A stretch of DNA of 44,559 nt from Planctomycetaceae bacterium (GTDB lineage Bacteria; Planctomycetota; Planctomycetia; Planctomycetales; Planctomycetaceae): positions 1 to 44,559 of the forward strand of contig JAKFUF010000053.1 in the NCBI GenBank assembly GCA_021732845.1, written 5' to 3'. Shown piece after piece: positions 1 through 9,678 of the stretch. How positions within the stretch are numbered: position 1 is the stretch's first letter; every line of letters starts with the position of its first letter. The notes under the pieces were generated by a model, which made no database searches, was not told the origin of the DNA, and saw only the letters and a list, made by a program, of their open reading frames with translations. Made by a program: the position numbers and the translations under genes.

Positions 1-406
1 CACGGCAACCGATCAGTAGGGTGACGATGCGGGAGGGCGACGTTCCTGCTGAGCCACCGTACACTGGCACCCCGTCGTTGAAGCGGAACGGCGTTACGAC
101 CGGACAAAGAATGAAGCACGCTTCAAGTTGCTGACCGAAGGCCGGTCGTAGGCAACGAGAAGGGGAACCACGAATTTTCACGAATACGACGAATGTCACG
201 AATGGTAACGAGCAGGATTCCATCGCTCGCGAGGGCATGCCGGTTGACGATTCGTGAACATTCGTGGTTATTTTATGACCGTACGATTCCCGCACGGTCT
301 TGCCAGGACTGTCAACTTCACCACCAACTCTATTCGTAGTCCCTGATGGCCTTCACTGCTGGATCGGGAGTCACTTGTCACAGTTATTGTTGCTGCGATC
401 CTTAGC
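1..406. other. Gene-poor left edge with repeat fragments
   Basis: No convincing gene is visible. Bases 29-60 resemble one half of the palindromic REP-like element that starts GGGAGGGCGA and is common in planctomycete genomes; this is recalled, not searched. Bases 167-185 and 250-268 form an 18/19 inverted repeat built on ATTCGTGAA and TTCGTGG, a sequence that recurs at 1669. A short open frame ends with a stop near 150 but matches nothing I recognise. Confidence 0.4.
249..285 (+). repeat. 37-bp direct repeat, left copy
   Basis: This segment reads GATTCGTGAACATTCGTGG and then runs on to TTATGACCGTACG. It matches bases 1669-1705 at 35 of 37 positions. The two copies bracket the stem-loop repeat array, so the pair may be a recombination or insertion footprint. 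Confidence 0.8.
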
Positions 407-1657
407 ATCCGGTTCCCGAGCGTGCGCGATCGGCGCTTGTTCGCGAAGGCAGAACCGGGGCCTAACGGCCTCCGGCTGATTGGGTCTTCGCCCCAGGCGA
501 GCGGAGCGACGTCAGTCCCCCCGCGGGAGGGCTGTGGGGCGGTGGTCCTTCAAACAATCAGCCGGAACGCGTTAGCGTCCGGTTCCCGAACGTGTGCGAT
601 CGCCGCTTGTTCGCGAAGGCAGAACTTTCAAAAAATCAGCCGGAACGCGTCAGTGTCCGGTTCCCGAGCGTGCGCGATCAGCGCTTGTTCGCGAAGACAG
701 AACCGGGGCCTAACGGCCTCCGGCTGATTGGGTCTTCGCCCCAGGCGTGCGGAGCGACGTCAGTCCCCCCGCGGGAGGGCTGTAGGGGGTGGTCTTTCCA
801 AAAATCAGCCGGAACGCGTTAGCGTCCGGTTCCCGAGCGTGCACGATCGCCGCTTATTCGCGAAGGCAAAACCGGGGCCTAACGGCCTCCGGCTGATTGG
901 GTCTTCGCCCCAGGCGAGCGGAGCGACGTCAGTCCCCCCGCGGGAGGGCTGTGGGGCGGTGGTCTTGCAAAAAATCAGCCGGAACGCGTTAGCGTCCGGT
1001 TCCCGAACGTGTGCGATCGGCGCTTGTTCGCGAAGGCAGAACCGGGGCCTAACGGCCTCCGGCTGATTGGGGTCTTCGCCCCAGGCGTGCGGAGCGACGT
1101 CAGTCCCCCGACCCACCGCCAACAGTTCGACGCCGCAGGAGGGCTGTGGGGGCTTTCCAAAAATCAGCCGGAACGCGTTAGCGTCCGGTTCCCGAGCGTG
1201 CGCGATCGCCGCTTGTTCGCGAAGGCAAAACCGGGGCCTAACGGCCTCCGGCTGATTGGGTCTCCGCCCCAGGCGAGCGGAGCGACGTCAGTCCCCCGAC
1301 CCACCGCCAACAGTTCGACGCCGCAGGAGGGCTGTGGGGGGGCTTTCCAAAAATCAGCCGGAACGCGTTAGCGCGCGTTAGCGTCCGGTTCCCGAGCGTG
1401 CGCGATCGCCGCTTGTTCGCGAAGGCAGAACCGGGGCCTAACGGCCTCCGGCTGATTGGGTCTTCGCTCCAGGCGAGCGGAGCGACGTCAGTCCCCCGAC
1501 CCACCGCCAACAGTTCGACGCCGCAGGAGGGCTGTGGGGGGGCTTTCCAAAAATCAGCCGGAACGCGTTAGCGCGCGTTAGCGTCCGGTTCCCGACCATG
1601 CGCGATCGCCGCTTGTTCGCGAAGGCAAAACCGGGGCCTAACGGCCTCCGGCTGATT
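407..1657. repeat. Array of about eight stem-loop repeat units (period 170-200 bp)
   Basis: Each full unit opens with AATCAGCCGGAACGCGTTAG and closes with CCTAACGGCCTCCGGCTGAT; the outer 11 bases are perfectly complementary, so each unit can fold into a hairpin about 100 nt long. Left ends lie near 556, 633, 803, 973, 1162, 1352 and 1552. Right ends lie near 481, 729, 899, 1069, 1258, 1457 and 1657. The first unit lacks its left end and the second lacks its right end. Loops carry GCGATCGC and TTCGCGAA palindromes. Units are joined by spacers containing GAGCGGAGCGACGTCAGTCC. Early spacers are short (period about 170). Later ones carry an extra stretch with CCGCCAACAGTTCGACG (period 190-200), and the last two units also have a small GCGCGTTA duplication. 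Open frames across the array differ between copies and are not coding. Function unknown. Confidence 0.9.
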
Positions 1658-1668
1658 GAAATTCGTAA

Positions 1669-1705
1669 GATTCGTGAACATTCGTGGTGAATTTATGACC
1701 GTACG
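1669..1705 (+). repeat. 37-bp direct repeat, right copy
   Basis: Second copy of the repeat at 249-285 (two mismatches). It lies between the last hairpin unit and the IS110 transposase remnant, whose homology begins where the repeat ends. Confidence 0.8.
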
Positions 1706-2031
1706 GCCAGCACCAGGGACAGTTGAAGATCAGCAAGCGGGGTCCGTCACTGGCCAGGCGGTGGCTGTACTTCGCGGCCCTGCGTCTGGTTCAGGATCAG
1801 TCCATCAAGCCTTGGTTCGAGCAGAAGAAGACCCGCGATCAGAACCGTGGCGGCCGGGCGGTCGTGGCGGTGATGCGGAAGCTGGCTCTGGCTGTGCATG
1901 CCGTGGCAGCGAGTGACGTGGAGTTTGACCCCGCCCGGGTGTCTCCCGGCAAACACATCCCTCGAGAAGTCATCGCGGCATGCTTGAAGGAGGGGGGGAA
2001 ATCGTCAGGGCTGGAAGGCAGAGTCCTTTGA
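1702..2031 (+). pseudogene. IS110-family transposase, C-terminal remnant
   Basis: The frame reads GQLKISKRGPSLARRWLYF, then a Trp-Phe-containing helix, then AVVAVMRKLALAVHA. This is the signature of the C-terminal Transposase_20 domain of IS110/IS116/IS902 enzymes: the KRG-R-L segment and a closing V-A-MRKL helix. The N-terminal DEDD catalytic domain is absent. An in-frame stop lies just upstream at 1696, and upstream DNA is the direct repeat and hairpin array. The fragment is about 110 codons against roughly 330-400 for an intact IS110 transposase, so it cannot be active. The usable TTG at 1723 is probably not a real start. Confidence 0.8.
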
Positions 2032-2361
2032 CTCTCGGACGAGGGATGCCAAACTGCCAGTGAGGACTCCGAGGACGATGTTGGCGATCTTCCTGAACGC
2101 CAGCCGGTTGATGCACCGGATTGACCGCGTGTTCGGCGGAGTTCTCTGCGGAATCCTTACCAACTTGAAGTGGCTCAGCCGTTTGGTGACGCGAAATCCG
2201 CTCGATTGACGCCAACATTCGGACGCGTGAGAATTATCCAAGAAACGGAACAGCGATGATCCTCGCGGCAGGCAGAGCTGCCAGTTGTTGTCACTCGGTG
2301 GGCGATTGTCAGGGTCCGCAATCAGGGATCGGCGGCCGCCGTGCAGCCTGCGGGGAGTCCG
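2032..2361. other. Intergenic stretch, possible decayed coding sequence
   Basis: No gene is assigned. A plus-strand frame from ATG 2078 encodes about 43 residues ending in SRLVTRNPLD before a stop near 2210, and it stays open upstream into the end of the IS110 remnant. It looks like a leftover of a longer gene, but I cannot name the family. Confidence 0.3.
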
Positions 2362-4263
2362 ATGAACCGGCTGAAGATCCAGATTTTCCATAAGTCGGCA
2401 CTCCAGTACGACGATCTTGTCGAAGGCTGTTGCGAGCTGGGGCGGCAGGCCCGGCCTGACGAGCCGGTCTACCAGACCATTCCGATCCCCCCTTCAGCAC
2501 CGCGCGCGGCGGGGTCAGCCCTCGTCGACTGCCGGCTGGCGATCGCGCGGCTCGATGAAACCGGTGTCTCGCGGCGGCACATCAGCCTCGAGGAACTTCC
2601 GGACCGCCGCGTCCGGGTGACCAACATCAGCGAGAACAATGTCATCGTGCTGGCGGACCAGTCGACCCTGCTGGCCCGCGAGTCGATCGAACTGCCCGTG
2701 CCCGTGATCCTGCTGCTGAAGGACAAGCAGATTCAGGTCGATCTGTCCGAGCCGGAGGGGTTTCAAGAACTCCGCCGACTGAACACCCAGACGATGGTGC
2801 CGGGTGAACTGAGCATCTTCAACACCCGGCCTCTGGCCGCCACGGCTCAGGCCAAGTCGTTGCTGGAGATGATGCCCGAACATGGTGTGAATTCACTGGT
2901 CGACTGGCTGCAGTCGGTCACCGCCGTGCTGCAGGCCGCCACGGGCTCACATGACTTCTTCGACCGGGCCGCGGCGGCGATCGTCCAGCTCGTGGGCTTG
3001 GAGACCGGCGTGGTCGTCCTGTACGAAAACGGCGAGTGGCGGCCCAAATCCATCAGCAGTGGCTCAGCACCCGGGCAGAAGAATCTTGCCACCTGGCAGC
3101 CCAGCCGCAAGATCCTCAGCATCGTCCGCGCGGAGAAGCGAACCGTCTGGCAGGTTCCCCGCGAAATCAGCGATTCGGCTCCCAGCCTGGTGGGAATCTC
3201 CGCGGTGGTCGCCGCCCCGATTCTCGACCGCAACGGAGCTGTCATCGGCGCGTTGTATGGCGACCGGCACGCCATGACCGGCAGCGGGGACGGCGGCATC
3301 TCCCGTGTCGAAGCGATGCTGGTGGAAACTCTGGCCTACAGTGTGGCCACCGGCCTGGCCCGCGTGGAACAGGAAGAACACCTCGCCCGGCAGCGGGTGC
3401 AGTTCGAGCAGTTTTTCACCCGCGAACTGGCCGATTATCTGGCCTCCGATCCCACGGCGCTGGAAGGCCGCGAGGCCGAGGTCTCGCTGATGTTCTGCGA
3501 CATGCGTGGCTTCAGCCGGATTTCGCACGCGATCGGACCGAACCAGACCTTCAACATGATCAGCGATGTCATGAACCTGCTCTCCGACTGTGTGCGGAAG
3601 CATCATGGCGTGCTGGTCGACTTCATCGGCGATGAAATGTTCGCCATGTGGGGCGCGCCGCTGCCGCAGCCCGAGCATGCCCGGCTGTGCTGTCGCGCGG
3701 CGATGGAGATGATCGTCCGCCTGCCGGAGGCAACGCATGCCTGGCAGAACGTGGTTCGCGAGCCGATCAAACTGGGGATCGGCATCAATTCCGGCAAGGC
3801 CTGGGTCGGCAATACCGGGTCCACCCACAAGTTCAAGTACGGGCCGCTGGGAAGTACGGTGAACGCGGCCAGCCGGGTGCAGGGAGCCACGCGGTTTTTG
3901 CGCAGCGACATCTGCATCACGGGCAACACGCTGGCCCTGCTGGCCGACCGCGAGGGCGGCAGCAGCGAATTCCCCGTGCGGCGGCTGTGCCGCGGCCGGC
4001 TGCTGAACATCCCGGATCCCTTCGACATTTATGAACTGCAGCCGGCAGCCACGGACGATTGGCGCGAAGTGACCAAGATCTACGAAGAGGCCCTGGAAAA
4101 CTTCGAGGCGGAGCGCTTCCGGCTGGCCTCGCGGCTGATCGGCAAGGTGCTCTCACAGTCGAACGACGATGGCCCATCGCTCGTGTTGCTCTCACGCGCC
4201 GTGGAGTGCTGGGAAACGCCGCCCAATCCATTCAGCCCGGTGTGGAACCTGCCCGCCAAGTGA
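2362..4263 (+). CDS. FHA-GAF-class III adenylate/guanylate cyclase
   Basis: Predicted 633-residue cytoplasmic signalling protein. An N-terminal FHA-like domain (about residues 25-120, with SRRHIS and an N-I-S-x-N-N turn) would bind phosphothreonine peptides. A GAF domain follows (about 180-335). The C-terminal class III nucleotide cyclase domain (about 365-550) has both metal-binding aspartates, D380 in MFCDMRGFS and D424 in FIGDEMFAMWG, plus the VNAASR motif supplying the Asn and Arg that stabilise the transition state. It should therefore be catalytically competent, making cAMP or cGMP; substrate choice cannot be decided. A tail of about 80 residues follows. No membrane segment is seen. ATG 2362 is preferred over the in-frame GTG at 2341 because homology-like sequence begins at MNRLKIQIF. 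The next gene is a Ser/Thr kinase on the same strand, which suits a phospho-dependent FHA input. Confidence 0.9.
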   Translation: MNRLKIQIFHKSALQYDDLVEGCCELGRQARPDEPVYQTIPIPPSAPRAAGSALVDCRLAIARLDETGVSRRHISLEELPDRRVRVTNISENNVIVLADQSTLLARESIELPVPVILLLKDKQIQVDLSEPEGFQELRRLNTQTMVPGELSIFNTRPLAATAQAKSLLEMMPEHGVNSLVDWLQSVTAVLQAATGSHDFFDRAAAAIVQLVGLETGVVVLYENGEWRPKSISSGSAPGQKNLATWQPSRKILSIVRAEKRTVWQVPREISDSAPSLVGISAVVAAPILDRNGAVIGALYGDRHAMTGSGDGGISRVEAMLVETLAYSVATGLARVEQEEHLARQRVQFEQFFTRELADYLASDPTALEGREAEVSLMFCDMRGFSRISHAIGPNQTFNMISDVMNLLSDCVRKHHGVLVDFIGDEMFAMWGAPLPQPEHARLCCRAAMEMIVRLPEATHAWQNVVREPIKLGIGINSGKAWVGNTGSTHKFKYGPLGSTVNAASRVQGATRFLRSDICITGNTLALLADREGGSSEFPVRRLCRGRLLNIPDPFDIYELQPAATDDWREVTKIYEEALENFEAERFRLASRLIGKVLSQSNDDGPSLVLLSRAVECWETPPNPFSPVWNLPAK

Positions 4264-4413
4264 GCGCCGGCGACAGGATAAAGGGCATGGGCCGATTGGC
4301 ATTGCGTGATTCCAGCGACCCGGAGTTCATCTTGGAGTAAACTTTGCGGGCGGCACGATGAGGGGCCGGGGCCGGGAGAACGGCAATTGAGGTCCGAACT
4401 GGGGGGGCACGCG

Positions 4414-7400
4414 GTGACTGACGAACAAGATCAAACCCTGAAGGTCGTCCCCGACTCGAAGCTGACCTCCGCCGAGACGCCGGCGACGCGGCCGCTCGAT
4501 GTCACCGCGGTCCTGCCTTCCTCGGCTTCCGCGCTCGGCCAGCAGCACTCTGCCTCCACGCCCACCGACCGGACGGCGGTTCAACCGCCGGCCGACTTGG
4601 ACGCCACGATTCTGGCAGTGCATGGTCAGGCAGGGTCTCCCGGTGTCACGCTCATGCCTCCGGGCGAGCGTCACCCGGCGGGGCCGACCTCGCGGTATCG
4701 GGTGCTGAGGCTGCACGCGAAGGGCGGTCTGGGACAGGTCTCGGTGGCGCTGGATCTGGAACTGGGACGTGAAGTCGCGCTCAAGGAAATTCAGGGACCC
4801 TACGCCGACGATGAAGAAGCCCGGGCGCGATTCGTCCGCGAAGCCGAGATCACCGGCCGCCTGGAACATCCGGGGATCGTGCCGGTCTATGGCCTTGGGG
4901 CGGGTGCCGGCGGCAGCCCGTACTACGCCATGCAGTTCATCCGTGGGCGAAGCCTGAAGGAGGCCCTGGACGAATTCCACGAGCAGCCGGCGACGGGTCG
5001 GACCACGGCCCCGGCCAGGCGGCATGATTCCGCCAAGGCCGTCAAATTGCGGGAGCTGCTCCGCGCATTCGTCGCAGTCTGCCTGGCGATGGAGTATGCC
5101 CACCGCCGGGGGATCATTCATCGCGACTTGAAGCCGGGCAACGTCATGCTTGGCGAATACGGGGAAACACTGGTTGTGGACTGGGGGCTGGCGAAACCGG
5201 TCACCCAGACAGAACTGTTTTCCCCCGGAAAGCTGACCGTGGCCGACGCCCCCTTGAGCAACCCGCTCACGGATTCCGGACTGAACACGCAGGATGGCTC
5301 GTCGCTGGGCACACCGCAATACATGAGCGCTGAACAGGCCGCCGGCCGGATGTCGGAGGTGGGACCGCTGAGTGACGTGTACAGCCTGGGTGCGACCCTG
5401 TACCAGGTGCTGACCGGCCGCGCGCCCTTTACCGGCAAGACGATGCTCGAACTGCTCCGACAGGTCGAGCACGGCGAGTTCCCCACGCCCCGCAGCGTCC
5501 GGCCGGACATTCACCCGGCGCTGGAGGCCATCTGCCTCAAGGCGATGGCGCTGAAGCCGGCTGACAGATACCCTTCGGCGAAGGCCCTGGCGACGGATCT
5601 GGAACACTGGATGGCGGATGAGCCGGTCTCGGCCTTTCAGGACGGCTTTGTGGAACGCAGCCTCCGCTGGTTCCGCCGGCATCGGGCCTGGGCCTGGGGC
5701 GTGATGACCACGCTCCCGGTGGTGATGCTGGTGGTCTTTGGGGCGATGATTCTTATCGAAGGCGCACGGCGGCAGGAACATGCCGCGCGGACGAAGGCGG
5801 TTGACCTGTGGACCAAGGCGGTGGCTGCCAAGGAGGCGGAGGAGAAACAACGCCAAGTGGCCGAGGAGAATCACAAACGGGCTCAACGGGAAGAGCAACG
5901 GGCGGTTGAGAATTTGCGGCACGCGACCATCGCGGAGCAGGTCGCCAGGCAGGAGAAGGAAAAGGCCACGGCCGAGCAGAAGAAGGCCATGGCCGCCGCG
6001 CTGGAGTCCCGGCGGACGCTGGCCACGCTGCTCCTTTCGAATGGGCAGAATCTGCAGAACGATGGCGACATCCCCGCCGCCGCCGTGTGGTACAGCCGGG
6101 CGCTGCCACTGATGTCCAGCGAAAGTCCCCTCGCCGAAGAGCTTCATCGCCGTCGCCTGGGGCTGCTGCTGCGGCAGTTTCCGCGCCCCGTCAACTCGTG
6201 GATTCTTCCTGCAAAATCGCGGCGGCTGCTCTTTCGACAGGTGTTGAGTTCCGATTCTCGCAAGGTGGCATTCTTCGGAGCTTCGTCGGACGTGCTGGTC
6301 GTCGACTCGTCCACGGGCCAAGAACTCTGGCCGCCCCTGCAGCACGCCGGCCTGGTCAGTTGGGTGGGCTTCTCCGACGACAATCGGCACCTGCTGACCG
6401 TCTGCCCGCCGCGTCAGGTGCGGGTCTGGGATGCCACGACGGGCCAGCCAGTAACTCCTGTCATTGAGACCGCGAAGAATCTGACGTACGCCGGGTTTGG
6501 CCCGGTGGGCAAGGCCGAGTTGAGCCACGATCGACAATCGCTGCTGGTCACCAGTGAGAACGGCCCTGAATTTGGTGTGGAATTCTTTGATGTCAGCACC
6601 GGAAAGGGTCGGTTTCCGCCACTCTCCAAGACGGAAAAAATTGTTGCCGCCCATTTTTCCGGCGACGGCCAGCGGTTCATCATCGGCACCGAGTCGGGTG
6701 TGCAGTGGCACGAAGCCGCCGAGGGGAAGCCGGTCGGCGAACCCTGGCCCGAACCGGGACTCTGGTCCGCCCGCTTCAGCCCGGATGGACGGTGGCTCAT
6801 CACCACCAGCGGCATGGGGGGGGCCAGCCTCTGGGATGCAGCCACTGGCAAAGCGGTGGCCACACTGGTGTCGCACCGGGGACCAGTCACCGACGCGGTC
6901 TTCTCCCCCGATTCCTCGCGGGTCATCACGCTGCACGGCGATCAGATGTCGATGCTGTGGGAGGTCCCCAGCGGGAAGGCCGTGGGGCTGCCGATGGAAC
7001 ATCTCCACCGTCCCATTGAAGCGGTGTTTCGGGAAGATGGCAGACAGGTGGTGACGATCACGCTGGAGGACACCCTGCGTGTCTGGGACACGCACGATGT
7101 GCGGCAGGTGATGCCCAAGATCAGGATTGGTTCGGTGTTCACCTCCGGATTTCTGGGTGATCAAGTTCTGGTCGTCGGCGAGGGCCGGGGCAGGGCTTGG
7201 GATCTGGCACGTTCGGCCGATCCGGGAACGGTTCGTGTCGGTGCGGCGGACAAGATCTCGCACCTGGCATTTTCCAAGAACGGCTTCCTCATTGCCGCCG
7301 GAGGCAACCGGGTGTGGTGCCTCCAGACCGACGGAACGGTCCTCTGGGGGCCGGTCGAACTCAATGGCTCAACCCCGGAGGCGGCACTGCAATCTCTGGC

Positions 7401-8427
7401 CGTCTCCGAGAACGGCATGTGGCTCGCCACGGCCACCGATGCCAAGACCGCTCAACTCTGGAACGTGGCGGACGGCAAGCCACTCGCGCCGCTGCCCGAC
7501 CATCAGGGTTCCACCACGGTCGTGGCTTTCGACCGGCAAAACCAGCGGCTGGCGACTGGCAGCGAAGACCAGACGGTGCAGATCTCTGATCTGGCAACCG
7601 GCAAGGTCGTCGGCAAGCCACTCCAGCATGCGAGCCGTGTTCGCGCCATCGAATTCAGTCCCGACGGAAAAATGCTGATAACAGGCTGCGATGACGGGAC
7701 CTTCCGTCTGTGGAATCCGCAGACCAGTGAGCCATTGGCAGACCCTGTCGCCCCCCGCACGCCGGGGCAGCCCCTGACGCAGGTTCGATTCCATCCCAAT
7801 GGACTGGCCCTGCTGGTGGGCGGCAATGCGGGGGACCTGTACTTGCGGGCTCCTATCCACGAGCCTGGAGGGAAAACCGCCCCCCTGCAGCGGTTTACCT
7901 ACAACGGACCAATCACCCAGGCGGAGTTTTCGCCGGATGGCCGGCTGATTCTGGCTGCGGGCTATGCCAATTTGGTCAAACTTTGGGACTGGGCGCAGGA
8001 GAAGGGTCCAGCCACGAATCTTCCCGCCGGTTTCATGTCCTTCCAAGCCCGTTTTCACCCGGGATCGCAAATGCTGGCGACCGGTGCCATCAAGGAGGTT
8101 CGGCTGTGGGAATCCATGACGGGGCGGATGCTGGGACCGATGTTGTGGCACAAAGCCCGGGCTCTCGCCTTCAGCCCCGATGGCCGGTGGCTGGCAACCG
8201 TCGATGATCAGATTCGGCTTTGGGACTTGGCACCAGAAGCGCGGACACCGGAAGATGTTGAACTGCTTGTGCAACTGCTGTCCGGGCGCAAACTTGACGA
8301 CCGTGGAAACCTGCAGTATTTGTCCTCGGACAAGCTGCAGACGATGTTCGACACGGTGTCGAAGACCTGGCCAGAAGAAACGCGTCCCGCCTCAGGGAAA
8401 GTTGTCGAACTGCCCAACGGTAAGTGA
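4414..8427 (+). CDS. Transmembrane Ser/Thr protein kinase with WD40 repeat domain
   Basis: Predicted 1337-residue membrane kinase. The kinase domain spans about residues 95-375: glycine loop KGGLGQV, ATP-anchoring K124 in VALKEI, catalytic HRDLKPGN with D238, DWG at 256 in place of DFG, and activation segment GTPQYMSAEQA. DWG is common in bacterial kinases of this architecture and does not imply loss of activity. One transmembrane helix lies near 430-450, followed by a charged coiled coil (about 455-530) and then about ten or more WD40 blades (about 600-1270) with repeated FSPDGRWL...LWD motifs. The WD40 region would be outside the cytoplasmic membrane. The start is uncertain: GTG 4414 follows a G-rich stretch, and the frame is also open from GTG 4306 and TTG 4387. 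It lies 150 bp after the FHA-cyclase gene, same strand. Confidence 0.92.
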   Translation: MTDEQDQTLKVVPDSKLTSAETPATRPLDVTAVLPSSASALGQQHSASTPTDRTAVQPPADLDATILAVHGQAGSPGVTLMPPGERHPAGPTSRYRVLRLHAKGGLGQVSVALDLELGREVALKEIQGPYADDEEARARFVREAEITGRLEHPGIVPVYGLGAGAGGSPYYAMQFIRGRSLKEALDEFHEQPATGRTTAPARRHDSAKAVKLRELLRAFVAVCLAMEYAHRRGIIHRDLKPGNVMLGEYGETLVVDWGLAKPVTQTELFSPGKLTVADAPLSNPLTDSGLNTQDGSSLGTPQYMSAEQAAGRMSEVGPLSDVYSLGATLYQVLTGRAPFTGKTMLELLRQVEHGEFPTPRSVRPDIHPALEAICLKAMALKPADRYPSAKALATDLEHWMADEPVSAFQDGFVERSLRWFRRHRAWAWGVMTTLPVVMLVVFGAMILIEGARRQEHAARTKAVDLWTKAVAAKEAEEKQRQVAEENHKRAQREEQRAVENLRHATIAEQVARQEKEKATAEQKKAMAAALESRRTLATLLLSNGQNLQNDGDIPAAAVWYSRALPLMSSESPLAEELHRRRLGLLLRQFPRPVNSWILPAKSRRLLFRQVLSSDSRKVAFFGASSDVLVVDSSTGQELWPPLQHAGLVSWVGFSDDNRHLLTVCPPRQVRVWDATTGQPVTPVIETAKNLTYAGFGPVGKAELSHDRQSLLVTSENGPEFGVEFFDVSTGKGRFPPLSKTEKIVAAHFSGDGQRFIIGTESGVQWHEAAEGKPVGEPWPEPGLWSARFSPDGRWLITTSGMGGASLWDAATGKAVATLVSHRGPVTDAVFSPDSSRVITLHGDQMSMLWEVPSGKAVGLPMEHLHRPIEAVFREDGRQVVTITLEDTLRVWDTHDVRQVMPKIRIGSVFTSGFLGDQVLVVGEGRGRAWDLARSADPGTVRVGAADKISHLAFSKNGFLIAAGGNRVWCLQTDGTVLWGPVELNGSTPEAALQSLAVSENGMWLATATDAKTAQLWNVADGKPLAPLPDHQGSTTVVAFDRQNQRLATGSEDQTVQISDLATGKVVGKPLQHASRVRAIEFSPDGKMLITGCDDGTFRLWNPQTSEPLADPVAPRTPGQPLTQVRFHPNGLALLVGGNAGDLYLRAPIHEPGGKTAPLQRFTYNGPITQAEFSPDGRLILAAGYANLVKLWDWAQEKGPATNLPAGFMSFQARFHPGSQMLATGAIKEVRLWESMTGRMLGPMLWHKARALAFSPDGRWLATVDDQIRLWDLAPEARTPEDVELLVQLLSGRKLDDRGNLQYLSSDKLQTMFDTVSKTWPEETRPASGKVVELPNGK

Positions 8428-8718: not shown

Positions 8719-9678
8719 ATGCTCAAGCTGCGGTTGCAACCATTCGTCGCTTCGGCACTCTTCATAGCTTTCCTGTGCGCGGCAGCTCCACTGTGGGCCC
8801 AGGGCAAAACAAAGAAGCCGGAATTGGACAAAGTGACGGGCAAGGTCCTCGGAGTGGAAGTGAAAGGCAAGGCCGTCAACATTTCCGTCCAGAAGGAAGA
8901 CGGAGAGAAGCTGGAAGTCCTGGTCACGCAGAAAATTGCCGTGCAGGTGAATGCCGCGGGCGACAAGGACTTCATCACCCCGAACGTCGGCGTGGCGATG
9001 GAGAATCTGGCCATCGGCGGCAATGGGGCCTTCTTTGCCCGCACATTCACCGTCTTCCTGGGAACGCGGCCCCCACAGTCGGCTGTCCAGACCACCAGTG
9101 GCTGGAACATCACCGGCATTATCGGCCAGGTGAACGACATGGGCTTCACGGTGAACGTCAACGGATCCACCCGCAATGTGGCGTTCGATGGCAATGATTT
9201 GACGGTCAAGGTCGTCTCCAGCGACGCGACGCTCATCCCCGAAGGTGCCCCCATCGAACTCGAAGGCCTCACCCGTGGCAAGAAGTTCCTGACGCAGAGG
9301 ATGAGTGTCACCCTCGAAGAACCGCTGGTGGCCGCCGAAGTGTTCGCCCCCAAGGGGAAGACAGGCGCCAAGCCAAAAACAACGGCCAAGACCACGACGA
9401 CGGGTGACAAACCTGGCGTTGGAGACAAGCCAACGGGAGACAAGCCTGCCGCCGGAGACAAGCCGGCTGGAGACAAGCCAACGGGAGACAAGCCTGCCGC
9501 CGGAGACAAGCCGGCTGGAGACAAGCCGGCTGCCGGGGACAAGCCGGCTGCCGGGGACAAGCCAGCCGGAGATGATCCGTTTGGTGTTGGCAAGGAAGGG
9601 GCGAAGAAGCCTGCCGCCAAGAAGCCAGCAGACAAGAAGGACGACAAGAAGCCCGAGGCAACCAATGAGAAGACGTGA
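8719..9678 (+). CDS. Secreted protein with GDKP repeats, unknown function
   Basis: Predicted 319-residue exported protein. A signal peptide covers about residues 1-31 (hydrophobic core LFIAFLCAAAPLWA, cleavage likely after AQG or WAQ). The mature N-terminal half (about 32-215) is beta-rich, with two segments built like small beta-barrel domains (VTGKVLGVEVKGKAVNI and ITGIIGQVNDMGFTVNV). The rest is a low-complexity tail of GDKP units spaced by T, A or AA, ending in a Lys/Ala/Pro-rich stretch. Such tails often act as flexible linkers or cell-envelope spacers. GGAGACC before ATG 8719 is a plausible ribosome binding site. I do not recognise a named family. Confidence 0.8.
   Translation: MLKLRLQPFVASALFIAFLCAAAPLWAQGKTKKPELDKVTGKVLGVEVKGKAVNISVQKEDGEKLEVLVTQKIAVQVNAAGDKDFITPNVGVAMENLAIGGNGAFFARTFTVFLGTRPPQSAVQTTSGWNITGIIGQVNDMGFTVNVNGSTRNVAFDGNDLTVKVVSSDATLIPEGAPIELEGLTRGKKFLTQRMSVTLEEPLVAAEVFAPKGKTGAKPKTTAKTTTTGDKPGVGDKPTGDKPAAGDKPAGDKPTGDKPAAGDKPAGDKPAAGDKPAAGDKPAGDDPFGVGKEGAKKPAAKKPADKKDDKKPEATNEKT
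9421..9516 (+). repeat. Perfect 48-bp tandem duplication inside the GDKP tail
   Basis: Bases 9421-9468 and 9469-9516 are identical and encode GDKPTGDKPAAGDKPA twice. Further shorter GACAAGCC units extend the array to about 9570. Perfect identity at the DNA level points to recent slippage or unequal crossover and predicts length variation between strains. Confidence 0.9.

Follow-up and report, generated by a model that had tools for sequence, protein, structure and literature searches.

In a 44,559-nucleotide (nt) stretch of the genome of a Planctomycetaceae bacterium (GenBank assembly GCA_021732845.1, contig JAKFUF010000053.1; hereafter the window), eight copies of a repeat unit lie head to tail between 402 and 1657. 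Direct dissection resolved six complete units (96 or 106 nt long) along with two partial ones, all on the + strand, as an earlier note made from the sequence alone had counted them. The complete copies are unit 3 (634–729), unit 4 (803–898), unit 5 (973–1068), unit 6 (1162–1257), unit 7 (1352–1457) and unit 8 (1552–1657); upstream of them lie the right remainder of unit 1 (402–481) and the left part of unit 2 (555–625). The complementary ends described in that note, AATCAGCCGGA and TCCGGCTGATT, are found in 6 of 6 complete units. Of its two shared loop motifs, TTCGCGAA is indeed present in all 8 units, but GCGATCGC is exact in only 4, the rest carrying one- or two-base variants. Tandem Repeats Finder returned two overlapping descriptions that cover most of the array (scores 993 and 1185), and the array is far beyond chance.

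Anatomy and growth of the array

Each unit is made of two repetitive extragenic palindromic (REP) sequences in inverted orientation, and not of the one hairpin of about 100 nt that had been proposed. Both REPs follow the plan AATCAGCCGG-n-stem-GTTA-stem-CCGGTT, with different stems that are each self-complementary. Small variants aside, the + strand REP of the standard unit reads AATCAGCCGG-A-ACGC-GTTA-GCGT-CCGGTT and the − strand REP reads AATCAGCCGG-A-GGCC-GTTA-GGCC-CCGGTT; tag, lower stem and loop are common to both, and the upper stem differs but keeps its complementarity. Each REP has a TCAG tag at its 5′ end, a lower stem of CCGG, a single-base bulge on the 5′ side, an upper stem of 4 variable base pairs and a loop of the GTTA type, which is how REPs are built in a REPIN, the inverted REP doublet also known as a bacterial interspersed mosaic element (BIME). 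In unit 6, for example, the left REP motif occupies 1165–1188 on the + strand and the right one 1231–1254 on the − strand. Unit 2 is without its right REP and most of its spacer.

The spacers fall into the short and long classes that the earlier note had recognised, namely 73, 73 and 74 nt for spacers 1, 3 and 4 and 93, 94 and 94 nt for spacers 5, 6 and 7, with an 8-nt remnant after partial unit 2. Each class is grouped along the array, and spacers are near-identical within a class. All of them except the 8-nt remnant (6 of 7) hold a hairpin of a second REP family, REP-B, with the standard form GGCGAGCGG-n-GACGTCAGTC-n-CCCG. These hairpins lie on the + strand at 496–522, 744–770 and 913–939 in the short spacers 1, 3 and 4, and at 1084–1110, 1272–1298 and 1472–1498 in the long spacers 5, 6 and 7. 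REP-B matches this genome nine times, six of them within the window array. The neighbouring units 7 and 8 have in common an identical 10-nt duplication in the left REP. Because near-identical spacers were amplified together with the units, the spacer classes are grouped and this duplication is shared, the array fits local stepwise duplication of unit plus spacer, which upholds the stepwise amplification suggested before. In published REP clusters, too, dimers recur together with the DNA at their flanks, according to the accessible text of PMC3733652. A second array in this genome, on contig C212, has three units and a different spacer.

The left end of the array is interrupted by a miniature inverted-repeat transposable element (MITE). 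This element, MITE E, occupies 97–401 on the + strand (305 nt here, consensus 323 nt), is delimited by its ends and a 3-bp duplication, and interrupts the loop of unit 1’s left REP. A probable left remnant of that REP at 81–96 (+) ends in the target-site copy TTA (94–96), which is duplicated at 402–404, and the joined flanks make a REP with 3 mismatches. The best reading of unit 1 is a REPIN that MITE E has split, and because of this split the array feature probably starts at about 81. A 49-nt internal fragment of MITE E (1657–1705, +; direct repeat D5) abuts the last unit.

MITE E matches 45 stretches of the genome at E ≤ 1.1e-31, the window’s included. Its ends were assessed in 35 end pairs (loci L207–L245), of which 2 show a single end or reach the edge of their locus; one right end, in L207, is common to two pairs. 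A looser end-finder that returned 77 rows gave many false pairs and was replaced. An exact 3-bp duplication accompanies 21 of the 35 pairs (14 TTA, 5 TAA and 2 TTG). The flanks join into a REP with at most 3 mismatches in 7 of 35 pairs, compared with 168 of 5,000 random stretches from the same loci. Two of these seven cases are exact, and there the duplication is the loop TTA; those at L238 and L227 are weak.

On contigs C8 (loci L226 and L009) and C3 (L011), the right end of the MITE is joined to a unit without a left REP, followed by spacer sequence that is of the long type and includes REP-B on C8 and is shorter on C3. The MITE-split array end was probably copied to these places, judging from the shared junction. 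We considered C8 as an unamplified founder of the array and rejected it, as it resembles the window’s MITE-split left end and units 2–8 keep the left REP. Intact units must therefore have existed beside the split one, and the C8 and C3 loci do not date the amplification.

Dispersal and conserved pairing of the REPs

The unit is also widely dispersed, so that of the earlier description ‘head to tail rather than dispersed’ only the first half stands. A 200-nt query found at least 52 matches in the genome, 42 of them outside the window, a lower bound as 40 of 254 candidates were scored. The half-unit pattern, at up to one mismatch and with the window included, gave 230 genome matches (112 + 118) against 8 (2 + 6) for a reversed control. 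Among 59 genomes its distribution is patchy, with exact matches in five: 141 in this genome, 49 in G030, 8 in G006 and a single one in G005 as well as in G010. Scanning the named genomes recovered at least 94 stretches, and the 80 listed as loci have mostly planctomycete titles. They include the isolates Stieleria tagensis and Neorhodopirellula pilleata, the rest being metagenome-assembled genomes; titles from outside the planctomycetes are those of a single Chlorobiaceae bin and of three loci from a bin named only ‘bacterium’. This taxon spread is a lower bound. On contig C14 (L010, reverse strand of 1–420) lies a unit that shares 99% identity with unit 6, and the similarity runs on into the spacer and ends at GGCGAG, the REP-B foot.

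REPs are biased away from long open reading frames (ORFs), as measured on ORFs and not on annotated genes. Only 17 of 51 REPs in the loci of this genome fall inside ORFs of at least 250 amino acids (aa), compared with 77% of random points; for the named-genome loci the figures are 19 of 89 and 75%. One exception lies on contig C56 of this genome (L049:1275–3542, +), where a 755-aa ORF holds a REPIN array, with six in-frame 58-aa repeats (174-nt period) made up of the inverted REP pair also seen in the window.

Using a pattern that left the stems free, we found fully complementary 4-bp stems in 56 of 60 half-units from fetched loci of this genome (shuffled mean 26.0, maximum 37) and in 70 of 85 from the named-genome loci (shuffled mean 40.5, maximum 51); the half-unit sequences are related, so these are not independent events. 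The stem covariation supports a hairpin whose pairing is kept through compensatory changes. The earlier note had held that dispersed copies without conserved base pairing would reduce the array to ordinary repeat debris; the copies are dispersed, yet the pairing is conserved. Neighbouring REPs face each other in 16 of 18 pairs in loci L009–L043 of this genome, 11 of them at exactly 38 nt, and in 13 of 20 pairs of the named-genome loci, which supports the inverted REP dimer as the unit.

A transposase clade beside the REPs in related genomes

In related planctomycetes, the same REPs flank a candidate transposase gene. Locus L135, from the uncultured planctomycete Planctomycetaceae bacterium RYN_439, came from the loci fetched by REP pattern and contains a 169-aa ORF with window-type REPs on both sides. 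Among 397 genomes of the taxonomic class, 162 hold relatives of this ORF (E up to 1e-5). Our set of 33 transposase loci consisted of 30 loci examined among these relatives plus L135, L202 and L064. At 50% identity or more, a REP by the strict definition lies within 1 kb in 20 of 23 loci, or in 19 of 22 when L135 is set aside, compared with 1 of 10 loci (L194) at lower identity; with L135 counted, Fisher’s test gives p = 5e-5. Shuffled loci had 0.00–0.02 REP matches on average. In the tree, all 21 REP-bearing rows fall inside one 25-row branch (support 98/99), and C215, a gene of the window’s own genome, falls outside it. Residues N87, H88, H90, W128, Y149 and Q154, which belong to the signature of single-tyrosine (Y1) HUH transposases, are invariant in the 23 of 33 sequences of alignment A1, and the residue after W128 is T, S or A. 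Left out of this alignment for stops or unsure ends were L173 (stop), L177, L180, L181, L186 and L202; L175, L191, L194 and L064 were also absent from it.

On the whole, copy number follows the gene as well. The median is 13.5 REPs (0–183) in twenty genomes with the gene (loci L172–L191) and 0.5 (maximum 6) in 20 genomes without a gene match (p = 7e-5). The pattern used allows variants and misses CTA loops, its reversed control gives 0–4 matches per genome, and the genomes without the gene are the first 20 in a list of 235, these 20 belonging to a single family. Judged by these associations, a Y1/HUH protein resembling the ‘class 3’ TnpA proteins is likely to be the mobiliser of this REP family in the relatives.

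Tandem copies were also seen beside such genes. At L172:388–1401, ten REP copies with 110-nt spacing adjoin the transposase gene, and at L182 five tandem copies at about 93 nt lie beside it. REP-B, for its part, flanks a different Y1 gene in G005 (L064), with two copies on either side.

We read the window array as a local tandem amplification of a non-autonomous mobile REPIN (BIME), which a Y1/HUH enzyme probably disperses in the gene-bearing relatives, and give this reading a probability of about 0.86. In those planctomycetes the class 3-like transposase would recognise the tagged hairpin as single-stranded DNA and disperse the REPIN. Here, the REPIN and its downstream flank, REP-B included, would then have been amplified in tandem, whether through slippage, through unequal crossing-over or through template switching stimulated by the hairpins, and a MITE landing in a REP loop would have split unit 1. 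Cleavage rules such as selection of CT by the AG of the tag are suggested by analogy with the TnpA_REP systems, as far as the accessible text of PMC8266576 describes them.

Several observations weigh against this reading. By the strict detector, 3 of 23 close homologues (L175, L187 and L193) are without a REP. On the tree, the REP label requires 5 changes, of which 4 or more are forced, and thus does not describe one clean gain; shuffled labels need 10.1 changes on average, with 0 of 500 as low as 5. Family scores are weak, at 19.8 bits for Pfam Y1_Tnp (cut-off 23) and 18.5 bits for the NCBIfam IS200 model (cut-off 55), which L174 does not match. The protein P0001 searched alone against chains of the Protein Data Bank (PDB) finds no transposase, a homologue profile reaches the PDB entry 2f4f (‘Transposase, putative’) at E = 0.0041, and an AlphaFold model of P0001 alone is poor, with a predicted confidence (pLDDT) of 46. 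Nine of the 20 gene-bearing genomes hold 0–3 pattern matches, within the 4 that the reversed control reaches. Conversely, 173 REPs in this genome, 87 in G030 and 15 in G006 occur without a close transposase homologue. Of the three, only this genome matches P0001 at all, at 43% identity and with another repeat at the flanks, so that mobilisation by a P0001-type enzyme is conjectural for these genomes.

Apparently orphaned REPs, rival explanations and known systems

The earlier note had raised the possibility of transposition substrates beside a REP-associated tyrosine transposase; this is supported by the flanks of the Y1/HUH clade in relatives but not in this genome. The assembly (95.68% complete, 262 contigs) contains no close homologue of the L135-type transposase, and because of this its REPs look orphaned. 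A transposase gene flanked by the window REP, the arrangement called a REPtron, was not found in this genome. Of 5 Y1_Tnp (PF01797) genes here and 19 in G030, G006 and G005, none has the window REP beside it, one degenerate piece excepted. That REP-like piece, with 3 substitutions, lies at L048:769–792, about 600 nt from the ORF of C215, which is the only P0001 match in this genome (43% identity). The C215 gene (L048:1402–1908, −) encodes a class 3-like Y1 protein with a different, GGACGGCTTGCGCCGTGCCGC-type repeat family on both flanks, and the two apparently form a separate REP/transposase pair. On contig C57 (L046:499–1475), a tandem array with a period of about 135 nt adjoins another Y1_Tnp match and comprises 7 copies of CGGAGTGACTCGCCTACTTGGC plus one farther off.

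These genes bear on the possibility that the REPs were mobilised in trans by another Y1 of this genome, such as C215, and not by a lost cognate enzyme. Although C215 is the sole P0001 match and has the degenerate piece nearby, its flanks carry the other repeat family, it branches outside the REP-bearing clade and no REP was found within 1 kb of it by the strict detector (row L202); we consider this route unlikely. Some REPs are reported to have roles in transcription termination, mRNA protection or gyrase binding, and the REPs here may now be kept for such a host function, with the array as a functional cluster. The persistence of 15 to 173 REPs in three genomes that lack a close homologue of the transposase and the avoidance of long ORFs seen in this genome (17 of 51 REPs inside them, compared with 77% for random points) speak for such retention. 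Yet gene avoidance is equally expected of mobile DNA and the distribution is patchy, with the exact pattern in 5 of 59 genomes, and we hold retention for host function to be no more probable than mobilisation in trans.

The earlier note had also suggested repeated RNAs, which would make the array a set of structured RNAs (small, riboswitch-like or CRISPR-like). The three units tested do fold strongly as single strands, with z = −3.1 to −3.9 (both strands of units 4 and 6, a single strand of unit 7), whereas one spacer gave z = 0.06 on both strands. However, the two strands of units 4 and 6 fold about equally well and Rfam has no match at E up to 1 over window positions 1–5000, so that nothing was found in favour of an RNA. 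The CRISPR form is rejected on the spacers, since it needs unrelated ones and those here are near-identical within each class. Overall, we regard an RNA array as very improbable. The tandemly amplified mobile REPIN remains our preferred reading, and the earlier interpretation is partly supported.

Further features lie downstream of the array. Just after it, at 1723–2031 (+), is a C-terminal fragment of an IS110-family transposase (NF033542, E = 7.3e-8; 31.9 bits against a curated cut-off of 140, covering profile positions 274–341 of 343), for which Pfam gives no match. A gene for an adenylate/guanylate cyclase domain protein (2341–4263) and one for a 1373-aa protein kinase with WD40 repeats (4306–8427) come next, and short tandem repeats of the motif GGAGACAAGCC occupy 9400–9572.

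The array is a known kind of element, a REPIN or BIME cluster. Like REPINs and BIMEs in general (see Bertels and Rainey 2011, PMC3116915, and Nunvar 2010, PMC2817692), it has an inverted REP pair as its dispersed unit, high copy number, a bias away from long ORFs, clusters and conserved stem pairing. It departs from known examples in its TCAG tag in place of GTAG, its planctomycete host and the lack of a close transposase homologue in the genome. In the accessible text of Di Nocera 2013 (PMC3733652), the GTAG- and CGTC-tagged REP super-families are both reported in Planctomycetes too, and no REP family of the window sequence was found there. The window’s stem foot TCAG is neither tag, although it ends in AG like GTAG. 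As in a REPtron, window-type REPs flank the transposase gene in related genomes (20 of 23 close homologues).

Class 3 TnpA genes, in the accessible part of Quentin 2018 (PMC6006769), occur mainly in Planctomycetes, Acidobacteria and Proteobacteria, encode NHxH, W and Y-x4-Q motifs, and are flanked by high-copy secondary structures whose foot is given as CnGA. The L135-type clade agrees in outline with the class 3 motifs NHVH, W[TA] and Y-x4-Q, but the fuller published Y-motif is not matched at every position. The 5′ tag of the REPs here reads TCAG, and its reverse complement CTGA fits CnGA but sits 3′. For TnpA_REP of E. coli, Stenotrophomonas and Marinomonas, the accessible text of PMC8266576 reports demonstrated strand-specific single-strand cleavage of substrates with a 5′ tag, a bulged or perfect hairpin and a TTTA loop, with a GTTA variant tested. 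The window REP, known here from its sequence, shares the 5′ tag, hairpin and GTTA loop, and differs in the tag itself and in the transposase group.

A TCAG-tagged REP family with a paired transposase clade was not found in the accessible parts of the literature searched, which does not prove it unpublished. More speculatively, these REPs and the planctomycete Y1/HUH clade might be a third lineage beside GTAG and CGTC, in which the enzyme makes tandem arrays of REPIN plus flank, a TWA-duplicating MITE uses the GTTA loops as insertion targets and some arrays become in-frame protein repeats; as a whole, this proposal strikes us as rather doubtful.

In aggregate, these results connect an unexplained repeat with one particular clade of transposases in the Planctomycetes, a group for which our searches found few papers on REP systems, and provide a testable pair of enzyme and substrate. 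The genomes with and without the enzyme offer material on how orphan REPs persist, and the locus and its relatives offer cases of REPs turned into MITE targets or protein repeats.
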